Positions 5,791 through 58,760 of a stretch of 64,000 nucleotides of DNA are shown here, one piece after another. Position numbers and translations under genes: made by a program. Within the stretch, counting starts at the first letter, position 1; each line of letters opens with the position of its first letter. The notes beneath the pieces are model-generated. The model was not told where the DNA came from and searched no databases. It worked only from the letters and a program-made list of their open reading frames with translations. This DNA is from Rugalucina vietnamica (lineage: Eukaryota; Mollusca; Bivalvia; Lucinida; Lucinidae): the NCBI GenBank assembly GCA_964017185.1, contig OZ024870.1, positions 57,972,312-58,036,311 of the forward strand, written 5' to 3'.

Positions 5791-5879
5791 CGCGAAAACT
5801 TGGTTTTCGTGTTTCCTGATCTGGTAAGTAAGTAGTAAGTAAGTAAATACTTTATTGTACGAGGGTAGCCCAGTTGGCA

Positions 5880-5950
5880 GGTCTGGCACAAACCGGCCTG
5901 TGCAGTCACAGGAGATGGCTAGAAGCTTGAAATTTTTTATTCAAGAAGAA
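5880..5950 (+). repeat. F1 fragment
   Basis: GGTCTGGCACAAACCGGCCTG and GGCTAGAAGCTTGAAATTT match the left half of F1. The fragment directly abuts the F2 right half. Confidence 0.6.
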
Positions 5951-5959
5951 GATGAATAG

Positions 5960-6105
5960 TATGAGGCGGTTCTAACGAGTACGCACAATCTATGTTTCGG
6001 AGCAAAAATAAGAAAAATAGGTATAACCCTGCATGCCCCAGTTTGACTGTATAAAAGTGGGGTTTAAGGGGATATTCATTGCACGGACATGTTTTCCTGG
6101 AGATT
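5960..6105 (+). repeat. F2 right half
   Basis: Begins GAGGCGGTTCTAACGAGTAC and runs through GGAGCAAAAATAAG, GGTATAACCC, AAAGTGGGGTTTAAGGGG to GCACGGACATGTTTTCC. The left half is absent, replaced by the F1 fragment. Confidence 0.7.
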
Positions 6106-6311
6106 GAATAGGGCTAGAATGAGATGTTTGAACCTACAAGCAGATACAGTTGGTATAGCTATTCAGCTTTACCATTTTTAACTTAACCGATATTTGACGA
6201 ATGGATTTTGCCATCATTATCATTTGTGTGAGTCCGTTTTCAGTTTTAGGGGCGTCAGGAGTGATTTTTAACTTTTAATCAATTTTTCGATGAAAATTTG
6301 CCTAGCAACAA

Positions 6312-6362
6312 AATAGCCCCAGATGTGACGCCGCGTTCTGCGGCATCACATCTGGGGCTATT
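6312..6362. repeat. 51-bp near-perfect hairpin
   Basis: AATAGCCCCAGATGTGA then CGCCGC on the left arm and GCGGCA then TCACATCTGGGGCTATT on the right arm, separated by about 5 nt. The arms differ at a single pair. It is an isolated, GC-rich foldback in AT-rich DNA. Confidence 0.7.
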
Positions 6363-6461
6363 CTGTTTGCCTATGTCCCATAAAAGGAACGCCAGGCTTA
6401 AATGAGTTAAAAAGAAAAAACAAACAAACAAACAAACAAAAAACATAATAAACCACCCATC

Positions 6462-6756
6462 TGGGAAAACATGTCCGCGAAATGTCTACCCCCTCATACC
6501 GCATTTTTACATATTAAAACTGGGGTCTACAGGGGTACATGTGTATACCTATTTTTCTTATTTCTGATTAAAAAAATGTGTGTACTCGTTTATAGAATCG
6601 CCCCGGCGAGGCGGTTCTAATGTGTACCCACAATCTATGTTTTGAGCAAAAATAAGAAAACATATCAAAACATTTAAATCTACAAGAACTACTATACGTA
6701 CTGAAAATTTTCATTTTTACAACTTAAGAAAAATCTGTATATTACATGGGCGTGTT
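6462..6756 (-). repeat. F2 MITE copy, reverse orientation
   Basis: Starts GGAAAACATGTCCGCG and ends ATTACATGGGCGTGTTTTCG. The central palindrome CGCCCCGGCGAGGCGGTTCTA and CTATGTTTTGAGCAAAAAT are intact enough to give a full-length copy. Confidence 0.8.
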
Positions 6757-6845
6757 TTCGAAATGCACCCACAAAATAAGTAGGCCTTACCCGAAACAAG
6801 GAAAATTAAACAGAAATAAATGGCACATAACGGTAGGTACAACCT

Positions 6846-7089
6846 GGGGCCAGTTGTTCAAAATTAACGACATCGTTAGTTAACCATTCGTTAAAATTTA
6901 AAACATGAATATGTCAAATACACTGTTATTTTTTGTTGAAAAAAATGTGAGAATCCTTTGCATTGCAAAGGATTCGCACATTTTATCAACAAAAAATAGC
7001 AGTATATTTGCTTACGTAATCAGCATTTACGTAACGAGCTGAGGTCTTAACGACGACGGTAAGCTAACAAAGTTTTGAACAACTGCCCC
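6846..7089. repeat. F3 MITE copy 1
   Basis: The TIR GGGGCCAGTTGTTCAAAA is matched by TTTTGAACAACTGCCCC at the right. A subterminal inverted repeat is built on TTAACGAC. The centre is a hairpin of GTGAGAATCCTTTGCA and its complement, flanked by TTTTTTGTTGA. A second copy lies at 31786-32030. Confidence 0.85.
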
Positions 7090-7186
7090 TGATCTGCATA
7101 CTGCCTTTCAAAGAATAACTCTAACAGTAGATTTTCTCATGACTCGGTTCATAATATCTGATAATATCATTATAATTGAAAATCTG

Positions 7187-7420
7187 CCGCTGCTTGGGAA
7201 AACGAACAATTAGGAGTTCCGACCAGGTCCGACACATACAAGCCTGTACAGTCTCAGAAGCATGCTAGAAGCTTGAAGATTTGAATATATGAAGACAATG
7301 AATTGTACTATCCGTGTAGCGAAAACAAAGGCGCTGATCAGCTGTGCAGTTACTGCACAGTTGATCTGCGCCTTTGTTTTCGCATATGCAGATTGTTGGT
7401 TTTCTCATGCTGTGGCTCAA
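7187..7420 (+). repeat. F1 MITE copy 3, next to the HtrL-like gene start
   Basis: Degenerate left TIR, then CGACCAGGTCCGACACA, GGATTT-type spacer, GCGAAAACAAAGGCGCTGATC, stem variant CTGTGCAG/CTGCACAG, and a right TIR GGTTTTCTCATGCTGTGGCTC. It ends about 50 bp before the ATG at 7471, so it probably lies in the promoter or 5' UTR of that gene. Confidence 0.8.
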
Positions 7421-7470
7421 CTATTGTTTACTGTCCAACTATGTGTCTCTTGTTTGTCAATGTGTTTAAG

Positions 7471-9379
7471 ATGGCGTGGAAACTATCTAGATTAATCGCA
7501 ATGCTTGGAATATTTCTGTTTCTCGTAATTTTGTTCAGTGCTTCAACATTTAATATAAGGGATACATGTAACATATTCAAGGTACAGTATCTTTCTTTAA
7601 CGTAGCACTTGACGTCCACAAAAACCCTCTATGAGTATATCAATGTTATCATGGTTACAGTATAAGAGCCTTTGACTGTTAGTTTCCGACCAGGCCCAAC
7701 ACAAACCAGGCTGTACAGCCACTAATCCGAGATTTCTCTGACATTAAACATCCTTCGATTATTTTTGACTGGCGGCTATTAAAACCCGTCAGACCCTTTT
7801 ATGGGTTTGCACCAGAGAAGACTCGGGTAGTATGAAATTGTAGATACAGAAAGTACAGTGAAACTCAAACACCAGACAAACTGCAAACCCTGGTGGTTTA
7901 TCTGACCAGTACATAAAGTGCAACATCCATCCATAAGCGCGTCAATGATTGGAAATACTGGGGGTTTCAAATGGCAACGGTAGTGGAACATTTCAGTTTA
8001 CCTTTAACAGTCACGTTGCTCTCTGCTGTTTTGACCATGACCCCAACTGGTCCGATTCTGCGAGAGAAAAAAATCCATGAAAGTATTGGATCAGACGCCT
8101 TAACACACTCCAGTAACATAACATGGTATCAATAAAGGTGATTAAACACAGTGGTGGGTGATTCAACACAGTGGTGATACAGCAGAGTGCAATGGGTCAG
8201 CATGTAAAGTTAGCCATATATGGATATTTGGTCCCTTTTGGCGATCCTTTTATGTTTTCATGGATGCAGATTGTTGGTTTTCTGGTGCTGGGCTCATTTA
8301 TGTGAAAACTGGATAAATGAAGTCGATATTTTATTTTTTTTTTTCTTGTTTTCCTGTTTAATTTGTTTGACTTGTTAGTATTTTCTCGGAAAACGGGATC
8401 ATCTTTTTTGCAGGTACAAATGGAAAGCTCAATATTGGCTCTGCCAGAATCGGGAAAACAAAGAAATAGAACAAGGAAGCTCCCACAAAGCCAGCTGTTG
8501 ATTGCAACACCAGAGAAATCTACTAACGTTTTAAATCTCAACGGCATGGAAGACGTACCGCTTACTATTGTTACTGCATACATTGATATAGGGACAATTC
8601 GAAAGGGCAAAAACGTCAAAAAGGTTCGCTGGCGAGAACCAAACGTTTATTTGGACTGGACTAAAATATTTGGACATTTGCTCAACCCCTTAGTGGTGTA
8701 CACGGATTCCGTACATTTCCTTCATTTGATTCAAAAACAGAGGTCCAGATTTCCTGAACGGACGAAATTTATTATGTTTGATAGATCGTCTTCTTGGGCA
8801 TTTAGCCTGAACAAAAGTATTGAGAAAATTTACAAAAGAAAAGAATATCCAAGTTATCTTCAGGACAATCCAACCAGTGTAAATTATTCTTGTGTACAGC
8901 ATGCAAAATATGAGATTACACAAAAGGCTGCTGAAGAAAACCTCTTCGGGACAGATTATATTGCATGGTTAGATGTTGGACTTTTTAGAGAGTCTGTGAA
9001 TAATACAAAAGACTTTATTTTGTCGTTACCCCCTGGTTTCAACGATTCCAAAATTGCTGTTGATCAATCTAAAAATGTAAGCATGAACGTTTCGTTTTGG
9101 CCAATTTTTGAAAAGAAGCTAGCCTGGATTTGTGGCTGTGCATTTATTGGTAAAATTGATACCGTGATACATTATACTAAACAGTATAAAAAGTCAGTGG
9201 AATATTTTATAAAACATAATTTAATGAACACGGATGAACAAATTTTATACGCTACATATACTGACCAAGGCCGAAAGGAGCTGAAACCTGACGTAGACTT
9301 ACAATTGTACAACAGGCCGACGAACTATACAGGCAACCTTCATTACTATATCGGATACATAATGAGACATTTTATCTAG
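7471..9379 (+). CDS. HtrL/YibB-family type II membrane protein (two exons)
   Basis: Exon 1 is 7471-7581 (37 codons) and exon 2 is 8414-9379 (321 codons plus TAG). They join in phase 0 across an intron with an AAG|GTACAG donor and a TTTTTTGCAG acceptor. The 358-aa product begins MAWKLSRLIAMLG, a basic start followed by a hydrophobic segment at about residues 7-25: a signal anchor with the body in the secretory lumen. The body carries LTIVTAYIDIG (about 87-97) and DYIAWLDVGLFR (about 218-229). I recognise these as hallmarks of the HtrL/YibB family, originally described in enterobacteria near LPS genes and of unknown biochemical function. Several N-X-S/T sites (NKS, NYS, NDS, NVS, NYT) fit lumenal glycosylation. 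The ATG at 7471 was chosen because it starts the hydrophobic anchor and sits in AAGATGG context. A role in glycan synthesis is inference only. MITEs lie about 50 bp upstream and 25 bp downstream. Confidence 0.85.
7582..8413 (+). other. Intron of the HtrL/YibB-like gene
   Basis: Holds two F1 fragments (about 7686-7730, CCGACCAGGCCCAACACAAAC; and about 8248-8298, CAGATTGTTGGTTTTCTGG) and a short repeat of GTGGTGATTCAACACAGTGG-like units near 8140-8180. A pyrimidine-rich tract (about 8330-8412) precedes the acceptor. Confidence 0.6.
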
Positions 9380-22949: not shown

Positions 22950-23440
22950 GTTTTTGGGAAAGGTCTTTAAAAAGGTACAAGTAGGCAAAGATCAGGAAAA
23001 GGCGCAATCAGAAAAAGATTCCCACTCCAAAAACCGAGGTGGGAAAAAACCAAACCAACAGTCAGGTACTTATACCATGAAACATATCGTAAGCCGAATG
23101 AGCAGCTATTTTCCCAATAGGTGGCCACTCAGTTACCTTAACTTAACTAAAAATATGAAAACATACATAAGGCGCCAACAGCACAAAAAAATTTTCAAAC
23201 ACCAAGACGTAAAACGAAAAGAACCACCACAGAAGTATCGACTTGGAACGATCAGTAACACAAAGTTACTGGCGGGCTTAAACCGGTTTTACATGGCCAT
23301 AACCTCACCCTCAGCTTCTGCAGTGGTTCATAACATTTAGTTAGTTATTCGGTCCTCGTGGTGAATCTCTAACTAGTCAATGAATAATCAAGAACAAACA
23401 AATAAATCATGATAAACATCCTGATGAATCAAAAACCAGG
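22950..23440 (-). repeat. F9 repeat copy 1 (reverse)
   Basis: The complement of the copy at 58310-58760. It includes AGGCAAAGATCAGGAAAAGG, GATTCCCACTCC, CGTAAGCCGAATGAGCAGC, GTGGCCACTCAGTTACC and, at 23245-23300, the complement of the module GTAAAACCGGTTTAAGCCC + hairpin AGTAAC/GTTACT + GTTCCAAG. An open plus frame of 128 codons crosses it, but the same DNA recurs elsewhere without conserving that frame, so it is not called a gene. Confidence 0.65.
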
Positions 23441-23572
23441 ACTCACAGACTGAGTAAGCTGCCCGACGATGGAGATCCCTGGGCGCCGAATAACCTACTA
23501 ACTCCGGAGCAAAAGAAAAACACCAGTTGGACCCCGGTGGGCCAAGCAACAGACAAGCAGCTCCGGCCCCAA

Positions 23573-23672
23573 CCAACTAAAATGAATAGCTTTATGTCGG
23601 GGCCATCATAGAGTCTGACGCCCGACCCACCGGCGTGCAATTAAAGAAGGCAGCATAGTTATCAACCATGAT
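23573..23672 (+). repeat. 100-bp block shared with 57767-57866
   Basis: AACTAAAATGAATAGCTTTA through TCATAGAGTCTGACGCCCGA, CCCACCGGCGTGCAATTAAA to ATCAACCATGATT is almost identical at both places. Only two differences were found by eye. Each block lies near an F9 copy, but F9 has opposite orientation at the two places. Confidence 0.8.
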
Positions 23673-24486: not shown

Positions 24487-24669
24487 GTAAGTTTGTAAAT
24501 GACGTCAAGTTTGTTTGTTTTGTCAAGAATGTTATTGTAGTAGATGTAAAGTTTTTCATTGTTATTTTGACCTAGATAGTGCTGGGTTTGCTTCGATGTA
24601 TAGGTAAAATTAAATTACTTCGACCGTGCCGATATGTTGATGGGACTGATGTGGGCCTACCTATGTTCT

Positions 24670-26018
24670 TGTGGCGACTTCAGAATCTAACCCCATGGTT
24701 TTGCAAAAGTATGTCCTAGTGTTGTGGTTGTATTTATCTTTTTTCGGTTGAAAACGAAAGTAGAAATCTAATTTTTGATCAATTTCCCGTTTGCTAGACG
24801 CTTACAGTTGGAAGACGCTCATTACTAGGTATATGGACCGTTGTGCAAGGAACGTCCGTTTGCACACGACGCCGCTAGATGGCGCGTGCTCCACCACTAT
24901 AAAAGCACGAGTTCGCACAGTTTTGGTTAGTTGTAAGCTGACCGCCAAAGAAACAACATTAAAATTAAATAATTTGTAGGGAATAACTGGAGTCAACAGA
25001 TAGGACTTTAGGCCAAAATATATAAGTATTAAAACTGTACATGACCATAGGTGCTAGATCGCCAGGTGGAGTGAACAGTAAATACAAAAATATTAGCTGC
25101 CTGGGTCGTATCTGTTCTGGGTATTCCCAAGTGTGGTGAACTGGATAGTGGTCCAGTAAAAGCTGAAATAGTGATTTCAGCAACTGAGATAGTGTTCTCA
25201 GTACTATTGCAATTTGGGTGGTCTGAGGCTTGATAACTTTGTTGAACTATCCTGGATGGTTTGAGGTTTTAGGGAGGTTTCGTTGGGTAGGTCTGGGGTG
25301 CTCCAGACGCGGTTTAAAGAGGAGGCTGTGAAGGAGAGTTATACAGGGGTAAACAGCTGGGACTTTAGGCCAAAGCTGCCTATGTCGCAGTTGTCCTGTA
25401 TATCTCTCAGTGCAGTGTTTGGACAGTGGTCCAGGTGTCATAGAGACAGTGGTCTCAGCTCTCAGACAGTGGTCTCAGAGGACAGTGATGGCGGACAGTG
25501 GTCCTAGTGCGGGTTTAGCCTCATGAAAGTAACATGAATGGGATGAATGATAGATACAGTGTATGGTTATGATGTCTCTACAACGCTTGGGTAGTTTCAA
25601 GTCAGAGTGGTCTGGACTGGTCTGAAAGACCAGTGGAACGTTCTTATATCGTTATAAACATTCAGTTATGATTGTTAATAAAGGGCCATGAACCTTATCA
25701 AGACCTAGGGCGAGGGTTGGGATCCCGTAAAACCGGTTTAAGCCCCCTAGTAATTGTATTACTAACCGTTCCAAGGCGGTGCTCTTGGTATCGTTCATGC
25801 CTGTCAGACCTTTCGAAGGGTCTTATTTAACTTAGTATTGGTTGAAGTCGATTTGAGTGACCTATTTCATTTCTTAGGTCAATTTTGCTATATGATTATT
25901 GTGTGGTGGCAGTATTTGTTTAAATGAGTAAAGTCATGGTCGCATTCAATGGTCGACCATGCATAAGTTTTGTTATCAGTAGTCTAGCCAGTCGGTTACG
26001 CTCGCTCGACACGTTACA
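24670..26018 (+). repeat. 5' LTR
   Basis: TATAAAA at 24898 is a good U3 TATA box and AATAAA at 25677 the likely poly(A) signal, placing R between about 24928 and 25700. Seven AGTG-loop hairpins lie in R, and the CCGGTTTAAGCCC module (about 25735-25790) in U5. Short frames within the LTR are repeated in LTR 2 and are not genes. Confidence 0.9.
25141..25504 (+). other. Array of stem-loops with invariant AGTG loop (LTR 1)
   Basis: Seven hairpins share the loop AGTG: CTGGAT-AGTG-GTCCAG (25141), CTGAAAT-AGTG-ATTTCAG (25163), ACTGAGAT-AGTG-TTCTCAGT (25183), GGAC-AGTG-GTCC (25421), GAGAC-AGTG-GTCTC (25443), CTCAGAC-AGTG-GTCTCAG (25461) and GGAC-AGTG-GTCC (25493). Stems differ but stay paired. The equivalent array in LTR 2 is 26892-27255. 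An eighth hairpin at 25616-25634 has loop GAA (ACTGGTCT/AGACCAGT). Confidence 0.8.
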
Positions 26019-26420
26019 AAATTGGTGGCAGCGGTGGGATAATGACAACTGCCGGACAGGTGTTGCCTTACCCACATAGTATCAGATTTAGGGAGGATAT
26101 CGGATGAGATCATTATTATTTGGGACCTTCATTTCTTAACTAATTTTGGTTAAAGATGCAAAGTCACAACTTCGTTTGTCTAAAAATTTATTCTTTCGGG
26201 CTATTGCAAAAGCCATATGTCAAATGGCCTTTTTCTCGAAATGGTTATATTGTTCAAATGCTTTGGCATTTTTTTAATGATTCAGACTTATGCTCAATTG
26301 AATGGTAGTGATTTTTCCTGCGGAACATGTACTTTTCGAAACTGGTTTGGCCTTTATTTTGACTATTTTCGGTGGATTATATTTTAAATTCGGGACGAAT
26401 TTTGACTAAGGAGGGGGTAA
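26019..26420 (+). other. Internal domain: tRNA-Leu PBS to polypurine tract
   Basis: Begins AAAT then TGGTGGCAGCGGTGGGAT and ends GACTAAGGAGGGGGTAA. The rest is AT-rich without any frame of note. Confidence 0.85.
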
Positions 26421-27769
26421 TGTGGCGACTTCAGAATCTAACCCCATGGTTTTGCAAAAGTATGTCCTAGTGTTGTGGTTGTATTTATCTTTTTTCGGTT
26501 GAAAACGAAAGTAGAAATCTAATTTTTGATCAATTTCCCGTTTGCTAGACGCTTACAGTTGGAAGACGCTCATTACTAGGTATATGGACCGTTGTGCAAG
26601 GAACGTCCGTTTGCACACGACGCCGCTAGATGGCGCGTGCTCCACCACTATAAAAGCACGAGTTCGCACAGTTTTGGTTAGTTGTAAGCTGACCGCCAAA
26701 GAAACAACATTAAAATTAAATAATTTGTAGGGAATAACTGGAGTCAACAGATAGGACTTTAGGCCAAAATATATAAGTATTAAAACTGTACATGACCATA
26801 GGTGCTAGATCGCCAGGTGGAGTGAACAGTAAATACAAAAATATTAGCTGCCTGGGTCGTATCTGTTCTGGGTATTCCCAAGTGTGGTGAACTGGATAGT
26901 GGTCCAGTAAAAGCTGAAATAGTGATTTCAGCAACTGAGATAGTGTTCTCAGTACTATTGCAATTTGGGTGGTCTGAGGCTTGATAACTTTGTTGAACTA
27001 TCCTGGATGGTTTGAGGTTTTAGGGAGGTTTCGTTGGGTAGGTCTGGGGTGCTCCAGACGCGGTTTAAAGAGGAGGCTGTGAAGGAGAGTTATACAGGGG
27101 TAAACAGCTGGGACTTTAGGCCAAAGCTGCCTATGTCGCAGTTGTCCTGTATATCTCTCAGTGCAGTGTTTGGACAGTGGTCCAGGTGTCATAGAGACAG
27201 TGGTCTCAGCTCTGAGACAGTGGTCTCAGAGGACAGTGATGGCGGACAGTGGTCCTAGTGCGGGTTTAGCCTCATGAAAGTAACATGAATGGGATGAATG
27301 ATAGATACAGTGTATGGTTATGATGTCTCTACAACGCTTGGGTAGTTTCAAGTCAGAGTGGTCTGGACTGGTCTGAAAGACCAGTGGAACGTTCTTATAT
27401 CGTTATAAACATTCAGTTATGATTGTTAATAAAGGGCCATGAACCTTATCAAGACCTAGGGCGAGGGTTGGGATCCCGTAAAACCGGTTTAAGCCCCCTA
27501 GTAATTGTATTACTAACCGTTCCAAGGCGGTGCTCTTGGTATCGTTCATGCCTGTCAGACCTTTCGAAGGGTCTAATTTAACTTAGTATTGGTTGAAGTC
27601 GATTTGAGTGACCTATTTCATTTCTTAGGTCAATTTTGCTATATGATTATTGTGTGGTGGCAGTATTTGTTTAAATGAGTAAAGTCATGGTCGCATTCAA
27701 TGGTCGACCATGCATAAGTTTTGTTATCAGTAGTCTAGCCAGTCGGTTACGCTCGCTCGACACGTTACA
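26421..27769 (+). repeat. 3' LTR
   Basis: Same length as LTR 1 (offset exactly 1751 bp along its length, so no indels). TATA box at 26649, poly(A) signal at 27428. At 27214 it carries the G that completes the CTGAGAC-AGTG-GTCTCAG stem. Confidence 0.9.
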
Positions 27770-27773
27770 TTCT

Positions 27774-28512
27774 CAATAATGCGATTTTGTCACGGTAAAC
27801 AATATACGACCACGTGCTTCACATTTCACTTGAAAAATGTGTAAAACAAAAATAGGTGTTATTGTTTATAAAACTTCCATCACTTGAGTTCATGCGGCAG
27901 GGTCAAAAAATTTACCGATACCAGATGATGTATTTAAATGAGGTTCCCCAAAGGGACTTCGCTTTATTTATTGGTTTTACATTCGGAGGCTACATAGGCT
28001 TATCTTCATTAAGCGCCTCTTTCCCCATTGTATGCCCCTTTCTTTGGTTTCCGGCTTGTGTGCCTAAAAATAGAATGCACTGCGGTAACCAGTCTGTTTG
28101 TTATTGTTTGGGTATGAATTTGTATTACATAAACAGGTAGTGATGCGGCTATATAGTTCCATATTTAATTTATATTTGAGAAGAAAGTTCTTATTTTGTA
28201 TAGACATATCAAGAACGATCTAAGTCGTACAATTGTTTTTACGAGTAAATTGTTTATTTTATTCCAATTACAATTTGGTTAACCTTGTTTATTATGACGT
28301 AATTATCTAACCCACGCTTAGGCCTACTTTTTTTGGCCTCATTAGCCATTTTGATTCTGAGTCAACAACAACAACAACAGACGCCTGGATTTCCTGTTAA
28401 TTTATGTATTAATAATTAATTTGCTAATATTTTGGTGAGTATTGTTGATGTTTTTGTCGTTATACCGCATTAGGGTTTGTACATATTTTAATAATCATGA
28501 ATTGGGCGGCAC
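27774..28512. other. AT-rich DNA, no recognised gene
   Basis: A (CAA)n tract lies at about 28363-28379. A 94-codon frame at 27856 is followed by an in-frame GGTAGTG but no acceptor context or family match was seen. Confidence 0.35.
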
Positions 28513-36054: not shown

Positions 36055-38624
36055 TTTTAGCTCACCTGAGCCGAAGGCTCACAAGGTGAGCTTATAGGAT
36101 GGCCATGATCCGGCGTCCGTCCGTCGTCCACAATTTCAAAGATCTTCTTCTCTGAAACCGCTTGACCAATCAAAGTGAAATTTTATGTGGAGCATCAATG
36201 GTTAGGGGGAACTGAAGTTTGATCGCAAGATCCGGGTCACATGACCAAGATGGCCGCCACGCCCATATATGGTAAAGTCCCTTCAAAAATCTTCTTCTCC
36301 AGAACCGGTGGGCCGATTTCCACGAAACTTGGCATGTAGCATCGGGGACTTCAGCCCATCATAGTTTGATAAAATGATGACCCTTGGATGACTTTGACCT
36401 ATTTTACGGCAAGCGGCAAGGTCAAATTTGGAAACATAGGCTTTTACATAGGAAAAAGTGAAAACTATGGATTTTTTGAAAACTATTGCAGCCTGAGGCC
36501 TGAAAAGTGGTAGATGCAAACAACTAATGGAGTAGATGAAGGTGTGTGATTATTATAGGTCAAGGTCATCTCTTGACCTTGGCCAGTCTGTTGTCCATAC
36601 ACACAAAGATCTTCTTCTCTGAAACTGCTTGGCCAATCAAAGTGAAATTTTATTTGGAGCATCCATGGGTAGGGGAGACAAAAGTTTGGTTGCGAAATCC
36701 AGGTCACATGACCAAGATGGCCGCCACGCCCATATATGGTAAAAAACACTCAAAAATCTTCTTCTCCAGAACCGGTGGGCCGATTTCCACGAAACTTGGT
36801 ATGTAGCATTGGAGACCTCAGCCCATCATAGTTTGATAAAATGATGACCCTTGGATGACTTTGACCTATTTTACAGCAAGGTCAAATTGGAAACATAGGC
36901 TTTTACATAGGAGGAAGTGAAAACTATGGATTTTTTGAAAACTATTGCAGCCCGAGGCCTGAAAAGTGGTAGATGCAAACAACTAATGGAGTAGATGAAG
37001 GTATGTGATTAATATAGGTCAAGGTCATCTCTTGACCTTGGCCAGTCTGTTGTCCATACACACTTTTCAAAGATCTTCTTCTCTTAAACTGCTTGGCCAA
37101 TCCAAATGAAATTTTATGTGGAGCATCCATGGGTAAGGGAGATGAAAGTTTGATCGCGAAATCCAGGTCACATGACCAAGATGGCCGCCACGCACACATA
37201 TGGTAAAAAACACTCAAAAATCTTCTTTTCCAGAACCCATGGGTCGATTTCCACGAAACTTGGTATGTAGCATCGAGGACCTCAGCCCATCATAGTTTGA
37301 TAAAATGATGACCCTTGGATGACTTTGACCTATTTTACGGCAAGGTCAAATTTGGAAACATAGGCTTTTACATAGGAAAAAGTGAAAACTATGGATTTTT
37401 TGAAAACTATTGCAGCCTGAGGCCTGAAAAGTGGTAGATGCAAACAACTAATGGAGTAGATGAAGGTATGTAATTAATATAGGTCAAGGTCATCTTTTGA
37501 CCTTGGCCAGTCTGTTGTCCATACACACTTTTCAAAGATCTTCTTCTCTGAAACTGCGCGGCCAATCAAAGTGAAATTTTATGTGGAGCATCCATGGGTA
37601 GGGGAGACAAAAGTTTGATAGCGAAATCCAGGTCACATGACCAAGATGGCCGCCACGCCCATATATGGTAAAAACCACTCAAAAATCTTCCTCTCCAGAA
37701 CCGGTGGGCCAATTTCCACGAAACTTAGTATGTAGCATCGGGGACCTCAGCCCATCATAGTTTGATAAAATGATGACCCTTGGATGAACTTGACCTATTT
37801 TACGGCAAGGTCAAATTGGAAACATAGGCTTTTACATAGGAAGAAGTGAAAACTATGGATTTTTTGAAAACTATTGCAGCCCGAGGCCTGAAAAGTGGTA
37901 GATGCAAACAACTAATGGAGTGGATGAAGGTATGTGATTAATACAGGTCAAGGTCATCTCTTGACCTTGGCCAGTCTGTTGTCCATACACACTTTTCAAA
38001 GATCTTCTCTGAAACTGCTTGGCCAATCAAAGCGAAATTTTATGTGGAGCATCCATGGGTAGTGGAGACGAAAGTTTTTTAGCGAAATCCAGGTCACATG
38101 ACCAAGATGGCCGCCACGCCCGTATATGGTAAAAAACACTCAAAAATCTTCTTCTCCAGAACCGACAGGCCAATTTTCATGAAACTTGGTATGTAGCATT
38201 TGGGACTTCAGCCCATCATAATTTGTTGAAATGATGACCTTGACCTATTTTACGGCAAGGTCAATTTTGGAAACATAGGCTTTTACATGGGAAAAGGCAA
38301 AAACAAACTGTTGCAGCCTGAGACCTGAAAGTTGCTAGATGCAGACAACTAATGGAGTCAATGAAGGTAAGTAATTACTGAAGGCCAAGGTCATGTCTTG
38401 ACCTTGGCCCAAGGTCATTTAAATATCAAACTTAAAATTATGGTTTTCTCAGAAATCACTGGGTTTGGAAACTATTGCAGCCTGAGACCTGAAACTTTGC
38501 AGATGCAGACAACTTATGAAGTCAATAAAGGTGTGTGAGTATTCAAGGTCAAGGTCATTTCATTATGACTTAATACTCCAAGATCAGGCTTCAGGTGAGC
38601 GTTCTCAGGACCAATGGTCCTCTG
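36055..38624 (+). repeat. F4 element copy 1 with about five internal tandem units of about 460 bp
   Basis: Starts TTTTAGCTCACCTGAGCCG, with a terminal hairpin AGCTCACCT...AAGGTGAGCT enclosing GAGCCGAAGGCTC. Ends CAGGTGAGCGTTCTCAGGA + CCAATGGTCCTCTG. Units restart at about 36120, 36595, 37053, 37516 and 37981 (TGTCCATACACAC, AAGATCTTCTTCTC), spaced 460-466 bp. Each unit has GGTCACATGACC + CAAGATGGCCGCC, CTTGGATGACTTTGACC and inverted pair GGTCAAGGTCA / TGACCTTGGCC. No transposase. Related copies: 42137, 45757, 54992. Confidence 0.85.
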
Positions 38625-58309: not shown

Positions 58310-58760
58310 CACTGAACCACTGCAGAAGCTGAGGGTGAGGTTAGGTGCCTGTAAAACCGGTTTAAGCCCGCCAGTAACTTTGTGTTACTGATCGTTCCAA
58401 GGCGATACTTCTGTGGTGGTTCTTTTTGTATTATGTCTTGGTGTTTAAATTTTTTTGTGCTGTTGGCGCCTTATGTATGTTTTCATATTTTTAATAAAGT
58501 TAAGGTAACTGAGTGGCCGCCTATTGGGAAAATAGCTGCTCATTCGGCTTACGATATGTTTCATGGTATAAGTGCCTGATTGTTAGTTTGGTTTTTTCCC
58601 ACCTCGGCCTGATTGTTAGTTTGGTTTTTTCCCACCTCGGTTTTTGGAGTGGGAATCTCTTTCTGATTGCGCCTTTTCCTTATCTTTGCCTACTTATACC
58701 TTTTTCTGAAGCGTCACTTGTAATCACAACGCTACAAATTATTGTTATTATTTTATTATT
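58310..58760 (+). repeat. F9 repeat copy 2
   Basis: GTAAAACCGGTTTAAGCCC, hairpin AGTAAC-tttgt-GTTACT, GATCGTTCCAAGGCG, TTTAATAAAGTTAAGGTAAC, GAGTGGCCGCCTATTGGG. A local tandem duplication of GATTGTTAGTTTGGTTTTTT + CCCACCTCGG occurs at about 58578-58640. Confidence 0.7.

Follow-up and report, generated by a model that had tools for sequence, protein, structure and literature searches.

A duplicated module of AGTG-loop hairpins in the predicted R region of a non-autonomous LTR retrotransposon from the bivalve Rugalucina vietnamica

Anatomy and class of the element

The window, by which we mean the whole stretch of 64,000 nucleotides analysed here, contains a complete non-autonomous LTR retrotransposon, TRIM/LARD-like in kind and 3,100 bp in length, whose two LTRs of 1,349 bp each enclose an interior of 402 bp. 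Near-identical TG...CA direct repeats with two mismatches (25463, C/G; 25824, T/A), a target-site duplication, a primer-binding site (PBS), a polypurine tract (PPT) and the lack of gag-pol coding capacity are the features that mark it as an LTR retrotransposon. Its landmarks are the following:

24666..24669 (left copy) and 27770..27773 (right copy), no strand: target-site duplication TTCT
24670..26018, forward strand: 5' LTR, 1,349 bp, TGTGGCG...GTTACA, two bases different from the 3' LTR
24898..24904, forward strand: TATA box TATAAAA, with a predicted RNA start near 24925-24935
25677..25682, forward strand: AATAAA polyadenylation signal, with a predicted end of R near 25695-25705
26023..26040, forward strand: primer-binding site TGGTGGCAGCGGTGGGAT, which we take to be of the tRNA-Leu type
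Just past the PBS, forward strand: remnant of an ORF of 21 codons, start ATGACAACTGCC, read by eye
26408..26417, forward strand: polypurine tract AAGGAGGGGG ahead of the 3' LTR, identified by eye
26421..27769, forward strand: 3' LTR, 1,349 bp

The R region was delimited from TATAAAA (24898) and AATAAA (25677), and the hairpin array described below does lie between these two signals, as had been claimed earlier, although the extent of R is itself a prediction. No ORF of at least 150 aa was found in the element, and it is on this ground, together with the 402-bp interior, that we consider it non-autonomous. LARDs are elements of several kb with a long interior; the window element would share with this type a large size, a PBS and a PPT, no coding capacity and mobilisation in trans, but its LTRs exceed its interior. 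The biv-TRIM elements of bivalves, as described in the accessible part of PMC6934838, are alike in being non-autonomous, with two terminal repeats, a short interior, a PPT and no proteins, whereas their repeats measure 202-218 bp and their interiors 77-80 bp, against 1,349 bp and 402 bp here, and they have no unambiguous PBS where ours is clear; a repeat hairpin array is not mentioned in that part of the source. With 3,100 bp in total and LTRs of 1,349 bp, the element is not a TRIM sensu stricto, a class for which the same text requires less than 1,000 bp in total and repeats of 100-250 bp. The Helenus and Ajax TRIMs are likewise animal non-autonomous LTR elements with RNA-gene features in their LTR sequence, and animal Helenus elements make 4-bp target-site duplications, as the window element does; however, going by the available portion of PMC10886601, these elements are smaller than 1 kb and carry a tRNA or 5S sequence in the LTR, and ours has neither. 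ARAGORN detected no tRNA in the window LTR and no Rfam family reached its cut-off there, which removes Helenus, Ajax and Cassandra, all of which require tRNA- or 5S-derived LTR sequence, from the candidate classes.

Elsewhere in the window, a tandem array occupies 36137-38573, with a unit of ~464 bp present in 4-6 copies, depending on the part of the unit, that are 72-100% alike, and a 49-nt sequence occurs three times (33118, 34766 and 35937, at spacings of 1,648 and 1,171).

Hairpins and duplicated modules in R

Seven stem-loops whose loops contain AGTG, reported in an earlier note made from the letters alone, are present in the 5' LTR at the positions listed here, and they recur in the 3' LTR (26891-27255):

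H1, 25140..25157, forward strand: ACTGGA-TAGTGG-TCCAGT
H2, 25162..25181, forward strand: GCTGAAA-TAGTGA-TTTCAGC
H3, 25183..25202, forward strand: ACTGAGA-TAGTGT-TCTCAGT
H4, 25418..25435, forward strand: TTTGGA-CAGTGG-TCCAGG
H5, 25443..25456, forward strand: GAGA-CAGTGG-TCTC
H6, 25459..25480, forward strand: CTCT(G/C)AGA-CAGTGG-TCTCAGAG
H7, 25493..25504, forward strand: GGA-CAGTGG-TCC

An eighth AGTG loop, at 25506, has a 5-bp stem. One pair of H6 is broken in LTR1 by the C at 25463, where LTR2 has G and an intact pair, and the pair is also intact in most fetched copies that have H6, locus L042 being the exception. The AGTG hairpins in R are not a product of chance. Of the AGTG loops in LTR1, 8 have a stem of 4 bp or more, where 500 dinucleotide shuffles average 0.45 and never exceed 4; for stems of 5 bp or more the count is 6 (shuffled mean 0.18, maximum 2), so that shuffled LTR sequence does not give similar numbers. 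A second control kept all 18 AGTG words fixed and randomised the remaining letters in 1,000 shuffles. Hexaloop hairpins with stems of at least 4 bp, of which LTR1 has 6 and LTR2 has 7, then averaged 0.66 and 0.70, respectively, and for neither LTR did a shuffle give more than 4.

The loop had been described as an invariant AGTG tetraloop. AGTG is indeed common to the seven hairpins, but they are better described by a hexaloop Y-AGTG-D on an A-T closing pair, which fits 7/7, because the tetraloop description fails at H3, where T.T stands at the closing place. The AGNN tetraloop substrates of the yeast enzyme Rnt1p, which have longer stems, are alike in a loop starting with AG, but H3 is without a tetraloop closing pair. 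The stems, for their part, had been taken as different yet pairing; pairing and covariation hold, but the stems are not unrelated, all being variants of CTG(R)GA/TC(Y)CAG. Centred on the loop, the seven LTR2 hairpins align without gaps and give a covariation score of 0.601, versus 0.304 shuffled (0/500) and at most 0.185 in slid registers, with two-sided changes in 7 of 8 pairs, 85.7% of cells paired against 70.5% shuffled, and a score of 0.590 versus 0.260 shuffled for the inner five pairs alone; the seven rows are paralogues within one sequence, so these controls are only indicative.

The seven AGTG hairpins are half of a larger structured RNA module that is duplicated within R, as first indicated by a sequence of 32 nt present at both 24986 and 25343. 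The other half of each module is a long hairpin:

M1, 24979..25128, forward strand: long hairpin of module 1, core GGACTTTAGGCCAAA...AGCTGCCTGGGTCG, with an extra apical domain of ~80 nt
M2, 25334..25408, forward strand: long hairpin of module 2, paralogous to M1 but lacking its apical domain

The two cores are alike (GGACTTTAGGCCAAA...AGCTGCCT..GTCG), and the apical domain of M1 is inserted between CAA and AGCT, where M2 has a 7-nt loop. The AGTG hairpins follow each long hairpin in matching order and at nearly equal spacing (H1-H3; H4-H6 plus H7). Local alignment of the module 1 half with the module 2 half scored 98, compared with a mean of 46.4 and a maximum of 67 in shuffled sequences (0/500). 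Across 34 in-register pairs, taken from a hand-aligned list that comprises the inner M stem, the core stems, H1/H4, H2/H5 and H3/H6, the differences between the modules comprise 5 compensatory doubles and 3 compatible singles, and 2 pairs are broken; when the same numbers of changes are placed at random, doubles average 0.7 or 1.0, and at least 5 arise with a P of 6e-5 (uniform) or 3e-4 (transition-biased). This test covered the pairs inside the outer module stems, whose registers slip by one base when the folds are compared by hand. Compared as wholes (20 pairs), the two arrays gave a weaker result, with a covariation of 0.267 versus 0.143 shuffled (3/500) and no excess of pairs with a two-sided change (3 versus 2.5 shuffled, 288/500), this count being made on 4 rows that are near-identical in 2 and 2. 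A match of the M2 region to mir-994 was rejected, at 27.8 bits versus a Rfam cut-off of 93. A further hairpin, CTGGTCT-GAA-AGACCAG, is located in 25590-25640, just 5' of the polyadenylation signal and beside a GTGG-loop hairpin.

As a whole, R folds with a z of −6.5 in sense and −6.0 in antisense (20 shuffles each). Windows of 120 nt showed no folding excess in U3, where z is near zero, and clearly negative values from ~24960, an onset that, as expected, would fit a structured RNA predicted to start near 24930. The strongest negative value is that of 25320-25439 (z −5.2), while 24960-25079 gives z −3.3 in sense versus +0.5 in antisense, which indicates that M1 depends on G-U pairs. R cannot be singled out by a low z alone, because some of 207 background windows of 120 nt (mean z −0.41, sd 1.57) reach −9.9.

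Genomic copies and related elements

Copies were searched for in a genome of 1.09 Gb in 47 contigs. The R probe gave 116 candidates, 40 of which were scored; 38 of these lie elsewhere in the genome than the window and show 96-97% identity. For the core 15-mer we counted 171 occurrences (reversed control, 0 and 2), and for array A (63 nt, at most 3 mismatches) 97 (control, 0). A random genome sample of 202 kb held no R copy. The 97 copies of array A show 28 distinct variants, 9 of which fall on the AGTG sites (12 of 63), where 5.3 would be expected if uniform, so that these sites are not depleted; the stem sites (40) hold 17 variants versus 17.8 expected, and the loop-flank sites (6) and spacer sites (5) hold 1 each. 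A standard pair is kept by 3 of the 17 stem variants, about the chance rate of one in six. Compensatory double changes number 0 in the 97 copies, and the covariation among genomic copies that the earlier note set as a check is not seen in array A. Nor is a loop fixed by selection supported for the present copies: for 16 variants, 7 of them in AGTG, there is some element with the variant in both of its LTRs, so that elements have probably transposed with altered loops, although conversion between LTRs could also explain it. Four insertions carry the H1 loop variant A8T, and seven carry G62A, a change that disrupts an H3 pair; none of the 97 copies departs from AGTG in the H2 loop. We also aligned 19 fetched copies with the window, excluding the incomplete locus L047 from the alignment and the counts. 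Each of their 19 stem changes affects one side of a pair only; 7 are compatible and 12 breaking, or 5 and 11 when each site and letter is counted once, compatible changes being slightly above chance. If selection acted on R structure, it did so earlier or is now weak on a redundant set; the R fold looks like the product of past selection, of whose upkeep the present copies show little sign.

Fourteen loci were fetched at core positions, and five of them (L035, L036, L037, L045 and L046) have one core only, with array A. All five diverge from the window downstream of array A; four (not L046) align to it in U3, and four (not L036) run into a different 3' half ending ACGCTACA, which in L035 is followed by the same PBS (TGGTGGCAGCGGTGGGAT) and an interior that begins almost identically. 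Over M1 plus array A, all five loci together differ from the window at 2/222 sites, and at one of the two, 25039, the window letter is found nowhere else among 19 copies. The corresponding figures are 4-6 of 249-258 in U3 (four loci), 1-6 of 47-49 in 24929-24977, and 8/55 in 25207-25262 (four loci). By these sequence comparisons the module appears as the best-kept part of the one-core loci, with the caveat that ancestry is shared and a breakpoint is near.

The 31-mer of PBS and ATG start, TGGTGGCAGCGGTGGGATAATGACAACTGCC, has 2,492 genome copies with at most 3 mismatches (1,222+1,270; control, 0), which points to a large related family. Among 10 sampled elements, all on contig 1, none has an AGTG hexaloop hairpin with a stem of 4 bp or more upstream of the 31-mer. 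Four of the ten carry a block of 100-111 nt that is 92-95% identical to window 25688-25798 and is their only blastn match to the window LTR (E 0.001); their LTRs count as about one LTR type because they are related to each other, three being ~90% alike over ~980 bp and the fourth 68-84%. On this sample, the hairpin array would be a trait of one LTR lineage and not of the whole family. The 31-mer occurs under different LTRs in the ten sampled elements, as if LTRs had been exchanged or were evolving far faster than the PBS region. A pattern for other AGTG arrays with other spacings, which had been designed to leave out the window LTR family, gave 367 forward and 781 reverse matches (reversed pattern, 395 and 365), with the reverse count in excess; among the 100 matches listed of 1,148, no further paired-hairpin array was found, most of those listed being minisatellites by eye and 7 rows belonging to the window LTR family. 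A minisatellite in locus L008 (reverse strand, 5875-7823) has units of ~110 bp, each with a 4-bp CAGTG hairpin, and no similarity between it and R was found. In the viral and prokaryotic collections, three core patterns had 0 matches and the two-hairpin pattern occurred in 5 contigs, which we take as chance.

The block shared with other LTRs corresponds to a second structured domain, in U5. This domain and the SECIS_1 matches found near some of its copies are located as follows:

25690..25796, forward strand: U5 structured domain, closing stem and hairpin arms, from fold and alignment
Window 23550-23617, reverse strand: SECIS_1 match
L010, 5309-5376: SECIS_1 match
L011, 3397-3464 (reverse strand) and 6052-6119: SECIS_1 matches

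The domain (~107 nt) is common to the window LTR, to another LTR type with the same PBS type and to an abundant non-LTR repeat, and further copies of the domain lie at window 58314-58422 and 23221-23329 (reverse strand) and in L010, L011, L023, L025, L050, L056, L057 and L058; it is 92-95% identical between LTRs that have no other blastn match. In an alignment of 12 rows (the window, 4 other LTR copies and 7 repeat copies) and 109 columns, 7 of 25 named pairs have two-sided changes, 92.3% of cells are paired versus 85.2% shuffled, and covariation is 0.258 versus 0.128 shuffled (0/500), with slid registers at 0.071 or less. Further pair types number 11, below the shuffled mean of 15.2 (500/500), and the two-sided changes represent few events, because most of them separate the LTR rows from the repeat rows. 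In the non-LTR repeat, the 3' end is shared by the copies and the 5' ends vary (5'-truncated). Four of its copies match SECIS_1 at 35 to 37.9 bits (cut-off 35), 217-224 nt upstream of the shared domain, and ORFs in L011 and L025 were called RT-like by eye, the one examined having no Pfam match. For this SECIS-bearing repeat, the selenocysteine-using Penelope-like elements (Naiad) may offer a parallel. Twister-P1 was rejected for a non-LTR copy of the domain, at 17.7 bits versus a cut-off of 67.2.

Possible roles of the array

The anatomy of the element, the duplication, the pairing covariation between paralogues and the spread to many genomic sites are established, and what we infer beyond them is recognition in trans at the RNA level. 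We tentatively propose, with a probability of about 0.4, that the array is an ancient set of redundant, putative RNA recognition sites, perhaps for the Gag of a partner. Each module presents a long hairpin with a partly unpaired conserved core (GGACUUUAGGCCAAA / AGCUGCCU..GUCG) and then three AGUG hairpins, with one more in module 2. Carrying R at both ends, the RNA of the element would offer the AGUG loops as repeated, mutually redundant protein sites to a recognising protein supplied in trans, for which our first choice would be the Gag/nucleocapsid (NC) of an autonomous partner. The packaging hairpin of HIV-1 sits in the leader after the PBS and, unlike our hairpins, is not in tandem in R. 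We prefer partner Gag/NC because the 402-bp interior leaves little but RNA to recognise and because exposed loop guanosines are known NC ligands: in the HIV-1 leader, as far as the accessible text of PMC7395439 goes, NC binds exposed guanosines, including those of a hairpin loop, and the GGAG packaging hairpin resembles ours in its short G-containing loop near the 5' end of the RNA. According to the same text, replacing that loop hardly affected packaging. Redundancy among the seven sites would let single hairpins or loops decay, as seen in the genomic copies.

Recognition by Gag is weakened by how little the present copies are constrained and by the lack of the array in the 10 sampled elements with the same PBS; a partner among these would not need the hairpins, because 0/10 have them. 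That antisense R folds nearly as far beyond its shuffles as sense R (z −6.0 versus −6.5) also counts against it. A literature search on LTR elements with an IRE, AGNN tetraloops in retrotransposons and tandem LTR hairpins returned no paper, and broader searches gave none recognised as describing such an R region among the papers listed, which is weak evidence, with most subscription papers outside the search. To our knowledge, the recognition in trans of protein-less LTR elements is largely an open question.

Quasipalindromes can be corrected by template switching of reverse transcriptase (RT), and the strongest rival explanation, though one we consider doubtful, is that such switching and segmental duplication make and keep palindromes and paired changes without selection, the array having no present function. 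Little or no loop or stem constraint in 97 copies would be in keeping with it, as would palindromes that are near-perfect on both strands in a region that RT copies every round, and an array and module that arose through duplication; yet template switching should yield some simultaneous two-sided changes, of which there are none among the recent copies, and neither the need of M1 for G-U pairs (24960-25079, z −3.3 in sense versus +0.5 in antisense) nor the partly unpaired core GGACTTTAGGCCAAA common to both modules agrees with it. The structure could instead serve the leader in translation, nuclear export or stability (IRES- or export-like) and not packaging. The ATG remnant just past the PBS would give the parent element a strongly structured leader of ~1.1 kb, to which U5 adds a second structured domain, but the element is without an ORF of at least 150 aa to translate and the hairpins occur in 0/10 sampled relatives with the same ATG context, so we regard this role as unlikely.

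Binding by a host protein, with the iron-responsive element (IRE) and IRP1 as the nearest type, seems quite improbable. Known IRE loops are CAGUGN hexaloops and some invertebrate IREs with an unusual bulge still bind IRP, in the accessible portion of PMC4184891, and the loops studied here read YAGUGD, with CAGUGG in 4/7. The other 3/7 start with U (UAGUGN), however; five bases 5' of the loop there is no unpaired C, and where a C is present (H2, H3 and H6) it is paired. The window hairpins are moreover arrayed, and no Rfam IRE match was found in 26860-27280 up to E 10 or in 24600-27850 up to E 5, so that an IRE is contradicted both by the missing bulged C and by Rfam. At the level of DNA, near-perfect inverted repeats downstream of a TATA box might be palindromic sites for a dimeric transcription factor, but it is the arms that vary and the asymmetric centre that is conserved, whereas dimer half-sites would show the reverse, and here again M1 needs G-U pairs; we give this explanation hardly any credence.

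Should the proposed recognition array be real, the recurrence of one loop on covarying stems in R would constitute a compact, testable recognition code. If, on the other hand, the palindromes were made by reverse transcriptase, they would stand as a warning that covariation among paralogous hairpins in retroelements need not mean selection.
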